A stretch of 64,000 nt of DNA. It comes from Choanephora cucurbitarum. Its lineage: Eukaryota; Mucoromycota; Mucoromycetes; Mucorales; Choanephoraceae. The DNA is taken from the NCBI GenBank assembly GCA_025331435.1, contig JAIWNI010000071.1, positions 78,074 through 142,073 of the forward strand. Direction: 5' to 3'. How positions within the stretch are numbered: position 1 is the stretch's first letter; the number at the start of each line of letters is the position of its first letter. The notes beneath the pieces were generated by a model. It was given only the letters and a program-made list of their open reading frames with translations. It was not told where the DNA came from and did not search any database. Below are positions 11,144 through 45,734 of the stretch, piece after piece. Both the position numbers and the translations under genes were made by a program.

Positions 11144-14100
11144 ATTGAACGAATAGTATATGTAAGAAAAAAAGAGAGAAAGGAAAAAGGAAAATTAATT
11201 CCCAACATGATTGATTTTTAAATTGTCCAACTCCGATTTTTTCCATGTCTGAAAAGTGTGCATATTATTCCATTTGATTACATTGTTTACTCACTTTTGA
11301 CTAAGAAGGTTACTAATGAATTATGTTGCTATGATATCACATTGATTTCTCTTTTTGTAGCTTTTTTCTAACTTGGGATCATTAGGGCTCTCAGGGTCTA
11401 ACTTCAAATAAGCTTATCGAAGCATCAGTAAAGACATACAATTAAGGAGTTTTTTTTTTTTTTTTTACAATAAATCAGAGATTATCTCCAAGTCCCGATA
11501 TGCGGGAAATCACAGGAAACCTACTTTACGCTACACTTGGTCTTGATTATGCAGCTATTCTGTCTTTCGTGTTAGAAGAAGAAGGAAGTTCGTCATTAGA
11601 GTTATAAAATACTCGTATGATTGAGATTGCTTCAAACAAACAAATGATATAGATTGTTATTCTATCTCTTTTTTAACTGTTGGATCAAGAGAAGTTCAGA
11701 TTGGAATGGCTCTCCTTATGTGGAAGATAACTAGCCAAATCAATACTTTACCAAGTAGTCTTGAAAAACATAAATCTTATTTCAAATTACAAAAATTGGA
11801 CACAAGTGGGCCTATTCTCATTCGCAAAGCACAATACTGTCAAAGAAAATTGTAAGGACAAAAGTGTTGTTTCACCTAGATGGTGAGCATTATATATATG
11901 TAGTTTGTCCAGATTCTATACGATAACTAAGGTAGTGTGAGTTCTTTCTTTCCAGGCCGCCACGTTCGCAACATTTTGCACTATAGCAAAGCTAAGTTGA
12001 AGGAATAGCTTCTCTATTACTAAAACATCCATTTAAAAGAAAGCGCTTTTGATCCTTTCAAATTGAACTTCCTTCATATAATAACAACAGATATCTTGTT
12101 ATGTTTGTTATATTGAAAGCCAACATTAGAACTCCAATCTTAGCATGAAGAACATTCGAAACACATTTCGAAATATTTGACAAGTGTATACGAGTTGTAT
12201 CTTATGAATTCAAAGATATCGAAACCATCAGTTTCTTTTCGTGCAGAGGATTCCATCACTTGTATGTTATGCAGACTAATACTTTTTGAGAATGAAATAA
12301 GCTAAAGAAAAGTGAAAGATGAAACTACTTTGTCAAGGCAATGTCATATTTACTGTTACAAAGGTTTGGAATCGTTTGATTTGCATATAAAGAAAAACAA
12401 GTACTTGCTGGCATTCTCGGCTAAGAAAATGTTCGCATTATCATGTAGATAAAGCAGAAGAAGTGAAAAGAAAGTTTTGATTCTTTTCTCAAGTCTTAGG
12501 AGTCAGATGCTTTAAGTTGTATACTTTTAACTAGCCAAGTTATTTTTAAGAATTCATTGCAACGTAAGAGAAACAGAGAGCCGATGACAGAGAAAGGGGT
12601 TTTGTATAAGCGCCATTCTCTACCAAGTCACTTTCTTAAGACAGAAGATGTTGGCAGTGCAAAAAGCTAAAGATAAATGTAATAAGAAACACCTCCAAAA
12701 TATTTTCGACCAACAAGGGTGGCTTTATATCCAATATCGCAATGAACTTGTAGAACATCTTTTTTCTTTTCACGTAAATTAATGATTTGAAGTACTAGAA
12801 AGAAGTGCCAAGTTCTTGTTATTAATAAAACATACAAGACAAATGATCAAAACATGCCTTTGATCTGTATGTATGGTGTCCAGAACCTTGGCAACGATGC
12901 TCTGAAGCCATTTCTTGTTGCTTTTGCCTTTGCCTGTAATGAATAGTGAGCAGTATATACTTGTTTTCTAGAGCTAATGAGGGATGCTTAAGAAACTACA
13001 CATCCTGAGCAGCCTCTGTTTACAACATATAAGTACATGGTGTTGATAGAAGCATTAGAAACTGTGCTTTTGAAATTTGACAAATTACTCTGCATATGGC
13101 ATATCATGAACAATACAAAAAAGAACTCGACAAGAATGGACGCTTCTTCGGAAAAGAAAATAAGAGAAGAACCAATCAAACTTGCACAAAAAATGATTCA
13201 TGTCAAGGATGAAAAACACTTCAACAACTTGGCCATGAAATAAATCATCTTTATAGTATAATAAGCTCTGTATTTCACTAAGAAATAGTATCTTCATAGA
13301 TAGAAAAAAATATCCTCGCAAAATCAAACCTATAACAAAGACTTTATCTTACGAGCCAGCATATCTAAGGAACAAGTCTTTAATAGCTGTCTTTCGTAAA
13401 TTATCTTTCCTAAAGAACATGTTTGAGATTCGTTATTTAAAGCCTACCAATTAAACTCAAGCCCCTATATTCCTCTACATTACATTGAAAGTAGAAAGCG
13501 ACCGTCGCGCTTTCAAGGTTGGCCTCTTTAGACGACTGAACATTATTCTCGCCTTTGAGTACATTGACGCGTACTGTTGTTTATTAGTATAAAAGCTTGA
13601 TCTTCTAGAGCAAGAAGAAACCTAAAATCAAGATATGTTGATTTACAGGAACAACAAGTTGAGTACTGTCAGAAGCTGCACGTCCAGCTTGCACTGCTGT
13701 TGAACCAGGTCAAATGGCTTGTGGCAATAAACCAATGGTGATGATGGTTGTTTTTGCTCTGCAAAGCAGAACTTCCTTCACTCATGCTTGCATGACGTTC
13801 TTTCTTTGGAAGGTGAGCCTTTTGCAACGCAAGGCGTTCATCGTCACTGACACTTGAGCGAAATTCAGAATGGGGTGACTTGATCAGTTCCTTTTGTTGA
13901 TAACAAGGAATAGTAGCGGTTCATCTTTAGGCTTGAAGCACAATTTCATCACCATGCGAGTTCGAATACTTTTATGCTTGACATGCATATCAGTTGTATA
14001 AAAAACAAGAAGATGAACTCTTTGTTTTACACATCTATTTTGGTATCATCAAGTAGAAGCAATTCTGAGCTACACCTGGACGAAACTATGGGTAAATCCC

Positions 14101-26996: not shown

Positions 26997-28521
26997 TTAA
27001 ATAAGCATTCGACATTCACCTTCGACTGGATTAAGCATATGGGATTGCTTTCCAAAACTCATCATGGACGAACGTGTCTTATTTTCTTCAGAATCTAAAG
27101 ATATCAGATCACATGTGAGCCGAATGATACCGTTTGTATATACAAGCCTACTTGGATCATATGGTTGATAAGAAGCAAGAGAAGAATTGGATGAGGTAGA
27201 TGATGGCTTTCTTTCAAAAGATACAGGCAATTCTATATCACTGCTGTTGCCATTATTGTTTGAAGGCTTCTTGATTTCCAATGATTCTACTCTCGAGAGA
27301 CCTATTGGGAAAACACATGCAAAAAAAGGGAGGGAGTGGAGATAGAGGGATAGAGGGAAGGGGAAAAGAATGTATATTGGTGATAATGGTTGAGTCATTA
27401 AGTATATTCTACTTGTTCTTTTTTCAAGATCATTAATTACTATTAGAAACTAGGCAACGTGATAGTACCATCGTTAAGATTATCTGAATAATTATAATAC
27501 GGTTGCTGTTGTAGGGAGTCGAGTGACGGGAGCTTTCTATAGGTGTGGCTTGAATTGTTCTGCGAAGTAAAAGTGATAGTAGTGCCAGATGATGTACTTG
27601 AATGAGATGTTGTTCTTGCGGATGTTGGTTCATTCTTTAAGGCGTAGGGTGGAGCATTAGAAACATTTGGAGACCAATTGGTGTTGGTATCACTTTGCTT
27701 GTACATGTCGTTACTAATCTTATTCATGTTCTGACTCTCTTTGAGTTTTGATACTTGTATTCGAAGGTTTTCAGCTTATTGGTGATAGAAAGAGGAGAGT
27801 GAGGGGAAGAGCAATTAAGTGTTACAACAATTGTACTTGAGATGCAATTATGTTTCATTGTTAACTTACCACTTAATAGTTCCTGCTTATTACTACTGTT
27901 AGCATTTCCACAAGCACACACTAAGCATGGATAAAGATAGAAACAGGAAAGTTATTAGTCCACAGAAAAAAAAGAGGTAGCATGTTTTCTTTTTACCATT
28001 TGATTTAGAAGATGAAGATACGACATCAACTAAATCTTGCATTGCCTAATTAAGAAAAATGCTCAATACGTTGGCATTCTCTTTTTTTGAATGTAACCAA
28101 GATATCAGCTTACATTTTGCTGTTTGGAGACTACCATTCTTAAATGAACAACCTCGCTAAAAAGTTGCTCACAAGATCTGGTAACACCTAGCAGGTGTTC
28201 TTCAATTCTCAAGATATGCTTAATGACTGGGTCATTTACATCTCGATTTTGGTTAGCATTATCTATGGAATGTGTGTAATCATTGCTTGAGTTGAATGAA
28301 TGAGGCTCTTGGTCTGAATTGCCTTGGTAGTTTTGCCCCTGACGATCTTTTCTTTCTGAGTCGTTTTGAAACTCATCCTTTCGCTGTTGCTGCTGTTCTT
28401 GTTGTTGCTGTTGCTGTTGCTGCTGCTGTTGTTGCTGTTGCTGTTGTTGCTGTTGTTGCTGTTGCTGTTGCTGCTGCTGTTGTTGCTGTTGTTGCTGTTC
28501 TTGTTGTTGCTGTTGCTGTTC

Positions 28522-28554
<33 letters not shown>

Positions 28555-28575
28555 TCGTTGTTGTCGTTGTTGTCG

Positions 28576-28627
<52 letters not shown>

Positions 28628-29373
28628 CCTAAATTTACTTTTTGGTTTTGAACTTGCTGCCAGTGTGCTTGATTTACTTTTGCACTCTTTCGCTTAATGT
28701 TCTGTAAATCGTCAACGCCACCTCTTCGGAAGTTAGGGTGCTTGAATTCCCAAGTTTGGTTCTCATTAGTGAGATTAGAATGAATCAAGTCATTTACTTT
28801 GTGGAATCCATACACTACAGATAAAAGTTTAGGTTAAGAAACATCTTGTATAGTTTATAATTGAATTCTTTTTTTTTCTTTACTATTCAATTGCCTCACA
28901 AAACTCTGCCAATTGTTGTGTTTGAAATACTGAGGCAAGACAGTCTTTGAGAATGTAGTCGGGTTAGATACACTGAAAAGATCGCCTACGGCTGACCAAG
29001 ATATCAATTTAGAGGATTCAGGGTCTTCCAGCATTCTAAGGAAATGCTTGAGAAAGGCTTTATCATATTGATTCATATTCGTATATTTACTTGTAGAGTT
29101 TGTTGACGAAAGCAGCTTGCGTTTTTGGGTTATTTGAAATAGTTGCAGTAGATGATCTAACAACGCTTGTATCATCGTTCGCAATAGGTCGTTCAGTATC
29201 ACTGCCACTGCTACTGTTACTGCTGTTATTATTGCTTAGTTTCAATCTATCCAACAAGAGGTGTTAAGATAACAAGAAAATCATGGCTGGCTGAAATAAA
29301 CCTTTTGAATCGTTGATCATTTCTGCTTTCCCCACTACTAGACGAACTTGACCGACTTGAACTTTTGGCCATA
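26997..29373 (-). CDS. HSF-type transcription factor with long polyQ
   Basis: Exons 29373-29302, 29246-29101, 29035-28884, 28814-28114, 28045-27997, 27920-27870, 27774-27469 and 27301-26997 join in frame to about 593 residues. A Ser-rich start is followed by a full HSF DNA-binding domain: AAFVNKLYKMLEDPESSKLI, SWSAVGDLFSV, FSKTVLPQYFKHNNWQSFVR and QLNMYGFHKVND. Then comes about 80 residues of nearly pure Gln, a predicted coiled coil (HILRIEEHLLGVTRSCEQLF) and a second one near KLKESQNM. The form QLNMYGFHKVND is like the Hsf1/Mga1/Sfl1 group; no response-regulator domain follows, so it is not a full Skn7. It would bind nGAAn-type elements as a multimer. If the last 167-bp intron is retained, the protein stops at 27443 (500 residues). 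Confidence 0.85.
28382..28626. repeat. CAG/CAA trinucleotide tract coding for polyglutamine
   Basis: About 245 bp of mixed CAA and CAG codons (read on the minus strand) within exon 4 of the HSF-type gene. It is interrupted by a few Glu codons and by a regular Arg-Gln-Gln series near one end, where a pure CAA run also sits. Codon mixing suggests selection for Gln rather than simple recent slippage in most of it; the pure CAA part may vary in length. Confidence 0.95.
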
Positions 29374-32086: not shown

Positions 32087-33082
32087 ATGTCTAAAAAGAA
32101 TTATTATGAAATGCTTGGTATCACTAAAGATGCCACTGAAAACGATATCAAAAAAGCCTATCGTAAACTAGGTAAAGAATGCTGTGTTGCATAAAACCTT
32201 ATTTTGTATCTAATTTCTAAAGTATAAATTTGTCAAATAGCTTTGAAGTACCACCCAGATCGTAATAAGGATCCTAATGCCAAACAACGCTTTCAGCAAA
32301 TTAGTGAAGCATTCGAAGTGTTGAGCAACCCACAAAAGAGACGAGACTATGATACTGAAAGACCATGGTCGGCCAATCAACATGACTTTCCCTTTTTTGC
32401 AGAAGATTTGTTTGCCAAATTTTTCTCATCCACTTCGCCTGGTTATTCTTCTGCAAGCGATGAAGATGATTCTTTCTTAAACGACCATTTCTATCGAGGA
32501 CCTCATTCGTTCTATCAGACCCCACCATCTCCACCCCTAACCAGTAAGAAGCCTCAATCAGTGAAACGGCCTCTTCATGTCTCTCTCGACGATCTCTATA
32601 AAGGTACCACCAAGCGTCTTAAGGTCACACGCACCTTGAACAATCAAACAACAGATAAAATCCTGACAGTGGACGTGAAACCAGGATCTAAATCAGGCTC
32701 AAAGATTCGCTTTCCAGGTGAAGGCGATACATTGCCCTCAGGTACACAACAAGATATCGAATTTGAAATACAAGAAAAGCCTCATCCTGTCTACACGCGC
32801 CAAGGAGACAATCTCTGTATCACCATGAAAATCACACTTCTAGAAGCATTGACTGGCTTTAGAAAGACGATCTTAAAATTGGATGGGACAACAACCGTTA
32901 TTACTTCAGATGGGTCACGTATCTTTCAAACGGGCGACGAAGATATTCTTATTGGTGAAGGAATGCCTAAAGAGGATCAATTAGGGGAAAAAGGTGATCT
33001 CATCATTCGTTATCAAGTAGAATTTCCCCAGAAGCTAAATTCCAAACAACGCCAGTATCTTCAAAAAGCACTTGTTGCTTAA
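32087..33082 (+). CDS. Type II DnaJ/Hsp40 co-chaperone (Sis1/DNAJB-like)
   Basis: Two exons (32087-32171, 32241-33082) give 308 residues. The J domain covers residues 4-70: [20 protein letters not shown], with HPD at 33-35 and NPQKRRDYD at its end. A short, Phe- and Ser-rich linker (no clear Gly/Phe run) leads to the two C-terminal beta-barrels: [51 protein letters not shown] and a C-terminal dimer helix [13 protein letters not shown]. There is no zinc-finger domain, so it is type II. It delivers clients to Hsp70 and stimulates its ATPase, in the cytosol or nucleus. The intron is inside the J domain just before LKYHPD. Confidence 0.92.
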
Positions 33083-33420
33083 ACTCCATTTGTATTATTA
33101 TAATCTCCTTTTTTTTCTGTATATACGATTGTAAATCTGGTTTTGTATTTATGCTGTTTGATATATAGCTTGCACCACACCGTGAGCAGGGAACTGATCA
33201 ATATGTGGTTTAGTAATGGTAATAAAGCAAAGTCTATGGATTAGAGATGGTTCTGTGATGATTTCAGAGAACAACTCCCGTAGCAACAAACTAAAACTAG
33301 CTCACGTCAAAAAAGCTGTCTCAATAACAAGTAGATAAGAAGATTCTGTTACGTCCAGGTTTTTTTTTTTGCATAGAGTAAGATAAAAGATAAGTTGCTG
33401 TTCTGTTTGAAAAGAGAGTC

Positions 33421-34312
33421 ATTAAACATCACCACCCCGGTTACCTTATTTAGTAATTTCCATCACCACCTCAAATGTCGATTTTGAGCATTTTTTCAAA
33501 TGTACCAGGCAAAGAAAAAAATTTGGCTTTTTTTTTACAACTCATCACCACCTCCAAGTTGATTTCCTATGAATCGAAAAAAAAAGTTTTTGTTTTTTCT
33601 CTAAGTCTTTGGGCCATCACCTTCTCATCCATTTTCAACTTTTTTTTTTTGCATTTTCTTCTTCTAAGTCCTTAGATATGTTCCATTTCTGTGTGCTTTT
33701 CTTAGACTGTTCTTCGTCTATTTCCGATATATATTCATTTTAGAACAAATGCTTAAAAGATGCCTTAAAAATGTTTTTATTCGAACTTTTCGAAAGTGGC
33801 AAATTAAACTTCTCATCTTGAAAATGCAGATTTAGTTAAGCGCCTCTATTTATGAAATCCACATACATGGAATAATTATGTTCCAAGCACTGAAAAGGTT
33901 GAAATATATTTTAAGAGGAATACTCATGGATTTTTTTTACAAAGTTCAAATGATCTTAAAATTTCAAATTGGGAATATAGAAAGAAAAGTCAACTTTTTC
34001 AAAAGGCACATAGAACGAAGAACAGTCTAAGAAAAGCACACAGAAATGGAACATATCTAAGGACTTAGAAGAAGAAAATGCAAAAAAAAAAAGTTGAAAA
34101 TGGATGAGAAGGTGATGGCCCAAAGACTTAGAGAAAAAACAAAAACTTTTTTTTTCGATTCATAGGAAATCAACTTGGAGGTGGTGATGAGTTGTAAAAA
34201 AAAAAGCCAAATTTTTTTCTTTGCCTGGTACATTTGAAAAAATGCTCAAAATCGACATTTGAGGTGGTGATGGAAATTACTAAATAAGGTAACCGGGGTG
34301 GTGATGTTTAAT
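33421..34312. mobile_element. Large inverted-repeat (foldback) element flanked by TTAA
   Basis: Left arm 33421-33716 and right arm 34016-34312 are reverse complements over about 296 bp; by eye they differ only in the length of T/A homopolymers. The 299-bp spacer (33717-34015) is unrelated, AT-rich and has no open frame. Each arm carries the motif CATCACCACC three times (left arm: 33427, 33461, 33543) plus a partial fourth (33615). TTAA lies at both ends (33422-33425 and 34308-34311), which would be the target duplication of a piggyBac-type element, although being palindromic it could also be part of the arms. No transposase is encoded. Near identity of the arms implies recent origin or ongoing conversion. 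A transcript across it would form a very long hairpin. Confidence 0.85.
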
Positions 34313-34804
34313 TTTTTAGTTTGAGAAAGAGAAAAGGTGGTGTAAAGCAAAAGCTTTTGTTTGTCTTATAAATTTGCACATGCAAAATGAAAAGGCTGTG
34401 CATGGTGTTGAAGTAAAAAACGATCCACGTTTTTCATGATTATTGATTGCTGCTCGAAATGGTTATTACTTGCTTGTCGTACCTACAACTAGCCTTAGCA
34501 TGAAAATATTAGAGTCAAGCAGTGAATCATTTTGTAATTTCCAACTTCTTGTTCACTATCTTCAGGCCCATATTCTGCATAAAAATAATCAGAAGATGTA
34601 TTTTTTCTTCTTTATAAGAAGTAAAGCAATTCAGAGAGAAGTATAAGCGTAGATTGTATGAGAACAAGAGCTGTTTATCAATATAATGAAGCCTGCAAAA
34701 TACATCTGAATAATCATCAAAAACTATTTAGAGCATTCCAATAAGCTTTGAGCTACATGAGGATTCGTAAATACGATGTTGAAAAGTTTACTTAACTGGG
34801 TAAA

Positions 34805-34907
34805 GACAACAGTTACTTTGATTAAGAGTGTTCGTGTTCTTGAGAAACACATTCTTATATTGAGCATACTCTCAAATCAAAGACTCCTAAGTTGAACGAC
34901 TACTATA
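34805..34907. mobile_element. Short TIR element (MITE), copy 2, internally deleted
   Basis: About 103 bp. The left end CAACAGTTACTTTGATTAAG is continued by AGTGT, and the right end, reversed, reads TATAGTAGTCGTTCAACTTA; both resemble the ends of copy 1. Between them is TTCTTGAGAAACACATTCTT and ATTGAGCATACTCTCAAATC, which match the left half of copy 1; the right half is missing. The ends are more diverged than those of copies 1 and 3, so this is an old copy. Confidence 0.7.
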
Positions 34908-45184: not shown

Positions 45185-45555
45185 TTATATAGTGGTATAT
45201 ATATCTGTAATAAAGACACACACAAAAAAAAAGAAAATAGTTACCAAAATAGAGAATAGATGAATTTCAAGCACAGCGCTGACGTGGAGAGAATCTGTGC
45301 AAGCGAGTCTTTTTCCAAAGTTGTAAAAGTATCTTCTTCCTAGCTGGTAATTTTTTCCAAGACGCTTTAATTTATGCCTTCCTAAATTTAGGGTCCGACG
45401 AAAGATTCAAAATGTGCTTTCTCAAAGAGATACCCATAATGAAAAGCGTACCTTTGGTTTGATCGACAAGCTTTTATTTATGCTCATAAGTAAGCCTCTC
45501 TTTTCGATTGCTGCATAACATAATAAGACAAGTTCATAGTTATTGTATTTTGAGA

Positions 45556-45734
45556 TACAATGATCGCTCAATTTAAGAGTGTTTGATTTAACAGTATGCT
45601 TAATATAAATGTAGCAATCCTTTGACTTAAGAATTGCTTCAAGCGTTAAAAAACCAATCAATTTAAGATCATGCTCAATATGATAGTGTATTTCCCAAGA
45701 ATACGGACACTCTTAAATAAAGCGACTACTGCTA
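45556..45734. mobile_element. Short TIR element (MITE), copy 3, inverted
   Basis: About 179 bp with ends TACAATGATCGCTCAATTTA and, reversed, TAGCAGTAGTCGCTTTATTT, both continued by AGAGTGT, and TA at each edge. Read on the minus strand it aligns with copy 1 along its whole length, including TTGAGCATGATCTTAAATTG, the segment AACGCTTGAAGCAATT and the right-hand repeat AAGCATACTGTTAAATC. It differs from copy 1 by scattered substitutions and hardly any gaps. Confidence 0.8.

Follow-up and report, generated by a model that had tools for sequence, protein, structure and literature searches.

A 905-bp inverted repeat of Choanephora cucurbitarum is very probably a non-autonomous Mutator-like element whose relatives carry an OTU-like domain

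Mutator-like elements (MULEs) commonly have terminal inverted repeats (TIRs) of hundreds of bp (PMC6446971, PMC3310237), and these long TIRs usually abut target-site duplications of 8–11 bp (PMC6446971). Among Mucoromycota, MULEs with a SWIM motif have been described as MULE-Mucorales (Dupeyron et al. 2019, PMC6446971), with a 10-bp duplication, a 40-bp TIR, one ORF and, in that account, no other motif; the term “OTU” does not occur in the main text of the same paper. Transposon proteins joined to a ubiquitin- or SUMO-removing cysteine protease are known as well, with Ulp1 in Mutator and OTU in Ginger1 and Helitron (PMC2836005). The family analysed here resembles the last group in this joining and differs from it in pairing a MULE with OTU. 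It shares with the long-TIR MULEs the TIRs of hundreds of bp, a duplication in the 8–11-bp range, and relatives that combine a MULE transposase with SWIM-like cysteines, whereas tips of 6–8 bp between arm and duplication and an OTU-like domain in the relatives set it apart. With MULE-Mucorales, from which it is distinguished by description only, it has in common the SWIM-like motif and the Mucoromycota host; it differs in its duplication of 8–9 bp, its TIRs of ~290 bp and the OTU-like domain. An earlier note on this DNA, made from the letters alone, knew of no named element of this shape; the long-TIR MULEs cited above supply one.

The stretch under analysis (the window, 64,000 nucleotides, G000:C327:78074-142073) belongs to a 33.4-Mb, 357-contig genome of Choanephora cucurbitarum (Choanephoraceae), so the host lineage is Mucorales, as had been supposed. 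We are highly confident, from the sequence comparisons below, that its inverted repeat is a 905-bp non-autonomous MULE, whose full borders (33414–34318) are wider than the 33421–34312 delimited at first. The left arm (33421–33717, plus strand, ~297 bp), defined by repeat search and arm alignment, includes the TTAA internally, and the right arm (34015–34312, minus strand) is its reverse complement. In the repeat search a homopolymer broke the arms into two overlapping pieces, one of 203 nt at 98% and one of 116 nt at 100%, while the arm-to-arm alignment contained no substitution, only differences in homopolymer and edge length; the arms are thus reverse complements that differ in length alone, as the earlier note had seen, and provide the long TIRs expected of a MULE. 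The spacer between the inner arm ends (33718–34014) measures 297 nt instead of the 299 bp first given. It has no ORF of at least 80 aa, and the window ORF list contains none of that length from 33082 to 34892. A scan of 33000–34800 gave no Rfam match to a known structured RNA at gathering thresholds.

The arms are flanked by short tips that are not part of the inverted repeat, GAGAGTC on the left (B type, 33414–33420, plus strand) and TAAAAA, read inwards, on the right (A type, 34313–34318, minus strand). Directly beyond them lie GTTTGAAAA (33405–33413) and GTTTGAGAA (34319–34327), which match at eight of nine positions; at equal separation, 16 of 62,995 window positions give a match of this quality. 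With a right tip one base longer (GTAAAAA) the window duplication would match at only seven of eight positions, and the 8/9 reading fits better. A second copy, on contig C291, has CAAAACAAG and CAAAACAAT just outside its tips, with an 8/9 match, or 8/8 when the tip is taken as GTAAAAA. Both duplications therefore have one mismatch each when read as 9 bp, and from these two alignments we set the length of the target duplication at 8–9 bp, within the 8–11 bp characteristic of MULEs. No convincing duplication was found at C71 or at the C46 copy at 12.6 kb, the remaining copies with both ends readable.

The same tips recur elsewhere in the genome. The A type, (G)TAAAAA, stands directly outside the sequence ATTAAAC, the context of the TTAA in the window, at C291, C357, C328 and the right end of the window element, and at C355 with a longer run of A. 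B-type tips are represented by GAGAGTC at the other end of C291, GAGAGCC at C223 and C46 (12.6 kb), and GAGAACC and GAGACCC at C71. Since identical bases occur outside the TTAA at unrelated loci, the tips are best regarded as part of the element and the TTAA as internal to it. C71 and C46 (12.6 kb), which are older copies, have B-type tips at both ends, so unlike tips are no rule in the family.

Searched against the genome, the left arm matched 22 times, at what we count as 11 loci: C327 (the window), C291, C328, C46 (425–433 kb), C357, C355, C46 (12.6 kb), C223, C71, C351 and C293. The element is accordingly multicopy. C291 matches the window over the whole element at 99%, and outside the tips the only differences between the two are a single substitution at 33759, within the spacer, and indels in homopolymers. 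The spacer is common to C291 (99%), C328 (98%) and C355 (80%), and occurs in pieces at 84–92% in C46; several arm-bearing copies are truncated or contain nested insertions. We regard the movement that separated the window and C291 copies as recent because the near-identical C291 copy carries its own 8–9-bp duplication. When the spacer is placed in the same orientation, the window reads B-tip, spacer, A-tip, while C291 reads A-tip, spacer, B-tip. This swap suggests, on the basis of two copies, that arm–arm recombination exchanged the tips relative to the spacer; the simplest account is a crossing-over between the near-identical arms, by which the whole stretch inside the tips would be inverted.

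The C46 copy at 425–433 kb was considered as an autonomous parent and rejected, as its 6.9-kb interior consists of nested stretches and spacer pieces, including a reverse-transcriptase stretch (RVT_1), taken for a LINE, and a 1-kb mini-element. On either side of this copy stand the arms of a perfect palindrome, each at least 3,166 bp long (G000:C46:422714-425879 and 432814-435979), a minimum length because the bases past the outer edge are alike again after a small shift. The inner edges of the palindrome coincide with that of the MULE arm, which would fit an inverted copying of the flank from one arm to the other, or a misassembly. No inverted counterpart of the final 2 kb of the contig is present at the palindrome. 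The C71 copy (L016:1419-1591) contains a nested repeat of ~175–190 bp, which was found at 39 other places among the best 40 of 137 candidates.

A longer related element, of the kind that the earlier note had proposed to look for, is present at C357 (L010). This 4.3-kb copy has arms 83% (left) and 79% (right) identical to those of the window and 99.7% identical to each other, with 3.6 kb between them. Its interior has an 869-aa frame with Pfam matches to MULE (PF10551, 2.2e-21) and ZSWIM1-3_RNaseH-like (9e-12), so a MULE transposase lies within a copy bounded by a related TIR. The length of 869 aa comes from a mechanical count that begins at a TTG within the arm; the ATG that opens the deposited gene model is at L010:1627. 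C293 carries a body 95% identical to that of C357. Neither transposase copy is complete, because other sequence stands in place of the outer 59 bp of the C357 right arm, and C293 is without the left arm. Across seven aligned MULE proteins, D282, D350 and E481, which may be the catalytic DDE triad, do not vary; the cysteines C574, C576 and C586 are likewise invariant. The C357 interior was also compared with the window spacer as its possible source, with no match.

A protein search with the transposase returned 11 proteins, of which the top two, P0001 (C357) and P0002 (C293), are 99 and 97% identical to the query over 48% of its length. In these deposited models the transposase and OTU parts are joined and the MULE catalytic core is omitted, and P0001 has no Pfam match at 0.1. 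The C357 genomic frame is open across the core that the deposited model omits, and the missing core is probably a gene-model error. The window itself contains a degenerate related MULE transposase (12752–13246 and 13476–14072, plus strand), with 56 and 47% identity to that of C357 and several in-frame stops. Elsewhere in the window, an ORF with a long glutamine run (28105–28815, minus strand) adjoins the ORF 28855–29208, which in our estimation resembles a heat-shock-factor DNA-binding domain.

These observations bear on the other ways in which the inverted repeat can be read. The earlier note had favoured a piggyBac-type MITE, in which the duplicated target is TTAA and the two TTAA sites delimit the element; TTAA is indeed present near both ends, and Mucorales genomes are recorded as containing piggyBac elements (PMC7928374). 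We nevertheless discard this reading as extremely improbable. Bases outside the TTAA are common to unrelated loci, hence the TTAA, which lies inside the arm at 8 bp and 7 bp from the borders, is not the border, and conserved tips occupy the place where a TTAA target duplication would stand. The better duplications, of 8–9 bp, lie outside these tips. Some copies have no TTAA at the corresponding position, for example ATTGAAC at C71 and ATCAAAC at C46. The transposase between related arms, moreover, is a MULE, since the Pfam scan of the C357 frame lists MULE and ZSWIM1-3_RNaseH-like only, where a DDD piggyBac transposase had been anticipated. There is hardly any more room for an assembly artefact, in which one arm was duplicated in inverted form by the assembler. 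In its favour, the arms match almost perfectly, and the C46 copy lies within a perfect palindrome, for which reason palindromes in this assembly deserve caution; however, the flanks of the window element differ, its tips differ, and C291 has the same anatomy with other flanks and its own duplication.

A third reading, compatible with a transposon, is a silencing hairpin. Maize Mu killer is likewise a MULE-derived inverted repeat, an inverted duplication for which a hairpin RNA has been proposed (PMC3440606), and RNAi pathways of Mucorales act on transposons (PMC11943222). Folded as RNA, the element is predicted to form a very stable hairpin (−564.5 kcal/mol, where 20 shuffles average −182.8), so that a read-through transcript could become dsRNA, be processed by Dicer and yield small RNAs that silence the MULE family. 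As a source of small RNAs the element is a possible candidate, yet a role of the Mu killer kind appears unlikely. In contrast to Mu killer, the window repeat is without transposase sequence; it has only 35 21-mers, covering 75 bases, in common with the C357 element and no 21-mer in common with the C293 stretch, and mobility alone explains the structure. The non-autonomous MULE thus remains the strongly preferred reading: TIRs, an 8–9-bp duplication and a near-identical copy elsewhere bear out the view of a mobile element bounded by terminal inverted repeats. Several observations count against it: the mismatch in each of the two duplications when read as 9 bp, the lack of a convincing duplication at C71 and C46 (12.6 kb) together with their B-type tips at both ends, the incomplete state of both transposase copies, the fact that these copies share only 79–83% of the arm and none of the window spacer, and the tips of 6–8 bp that intervene where MULE TIRs normally abut the duplication.

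A motif count confirmed that CATCACCACC occurs three times in each arm, at 33427–33436 (site 1), 33461–33470 (site 2) and 33543–33552 (site 3) on the plus strand of the left arm, and at 34180–34189 (site 3), 34263–34272 (site 2) and 34297–34306 (site 1) on the minus strand of the right arm. All six sites in the window fall within the arms, against 0.02 expected, and none of 100 shuffles reached six. The earlier suggestion of a transposase-binding site is a fair one: the CATCACCACC columns are kept at 30 of 30 positions between the window and C357 (213 of 266 elsewhere; p = 0.004), and because of this conservation the repeats are likely binding sites. Single sites are altered or absent in other copies. 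The transposase of a related copy would then bind the TIRs, probably at the CATCACCACC sites, and cut at the tips, which would allow cut-and-paste movement in trans with reinsertion by a staggered cut of 8–9 bp. The window element would be an internal-deletion derivative of a longer MULE–OTU element; the exact parent was not found among the loci.

The frame downstream of the C357 transposase carries the sequences DGFCGFRA and NHW. A Pfam call for OTU gave nothing for the C357 domain, and otubain/OTU matches below the cut-off in some relatives. A profile of seven proteins searched against the PDB detected OTUD5 (3.1e-7 and 6.3e-7) and a viral polymerase chain (1.6e-4); the other seven matches up to E = 10 (0.004–0.96) were three viral polymerase entries, OTUD1 and three VCPIP1 entries. 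We presume the three weaker viral polymerase entries to be OTU domains as well. Sequence similarity of the accessory domain to OTU proteases is therefore present in the PDB profile search. The DG-CG motif and a late H align across the OTU-like domains, and the Asp and Cys of DG-CG and the late H may be the OTU catalytic residues. The structure model of the OTU domain has a pLDDT of 75.9 and a pTM of 0.80.

The domain was found beside MULEs throughout the genome. The best 60 of 109 candidate transposase matches gave 51 MULE loci (a lower bound), and 54 OTU-like matches gave 49 loci. Of the 51 MULE loci found (again a lower bound), 36 are closely followed downstream by an OTU-like match of the same strand and 15 have none; a MULE lies upstream at 36 of the 49 OTU loci and is absent at 13. 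At C279, transposase and OTU-like domain share one 949-aa frame. A transposase followed by DG-CG[FY]RA also occurs in Mucor saturninus (P0005, P0009, P0010) and Cetraspora pellucida (P0006). P0003, a closer relative, ends ahead of any OTU domain. The pairing of MULE and OTU apparently belongs to the family, and the branch is apparently undescribed, as judged from the literature searched. We recognised no report of OTU in a MULE among the papers found there; the fungal survey of Muszewska et al. could mention one.

Tips outside the arms are found in other MULE families of this genome. For example, the C303 MULE, with a protein 32% identical to that of C357, ~146-bp arms at 91% and an exact 9-bp duplication (ATATGTTTT), has the unlike tips CAGAATG and GAATAAA outside its arms. 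CAGAATG recurs at C279 and C337, CAGAGTG is present at C308 and GAATAAA at C246; the C155 flank equals the C279 flank and was not counted as independent. At C297 and C343, exact 8-bp duplications stand directly at the arms, without tips. The 1-kb mini-element in the spacer of the C46 copy (L009:1368-2382) has inverted ends at 89%, carries an OTU fragment only and is flanked on both sides by an exact 8-bp duplication, GCAAATTA. The window (33799–33806, plus strand), like C291, carries GCAAATTA once, as the empty site of the mini-element, which also occurs at C134:20039-20967 and C148:9942-10890. We interpret it as a MULE-like element that retains part of the accessory OTU gene. A separate repeat of ~175 bp lies at ~1126–1303 and 45555–45720 of the window, with 39 other places at 88–94% among the best 40 of 322 candidates; four of its members are 17.4 kb apart on contig C39, a hint of a large tandem repeat there.

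The kind of element is ordinary, and the OTU domain and the tips outside the repeats are the unusual features of its branch, a family variant worth describing. The supposed undescribed foldback family can now be defined as a non-autonomous MULE for which the kind of transposase source can be named, and the window element points to a MULE lineage with an OTU domain. With the near-identical pair on C327 and C291, recent mobility and arm–arm inversion can both be put to a concrete test. With somewhat less than even confidence, we propose that Mucoromycota harbour an undescribed MULE branch in which the transposase is accompanied by an OTU deubiquitinase, in the place that Ulp1 takes in some Mutators, in which some families have tips outside the repeats and recombination between arms may flip the interior, and of which the window element would be both a recently mobile parasite and a read-out. 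If the OTU domain is an active deubiquitinase needed for transposition, this would support the proposal of a wide role of the ubiquitin pathway in DNA transposition (PMC2836005).
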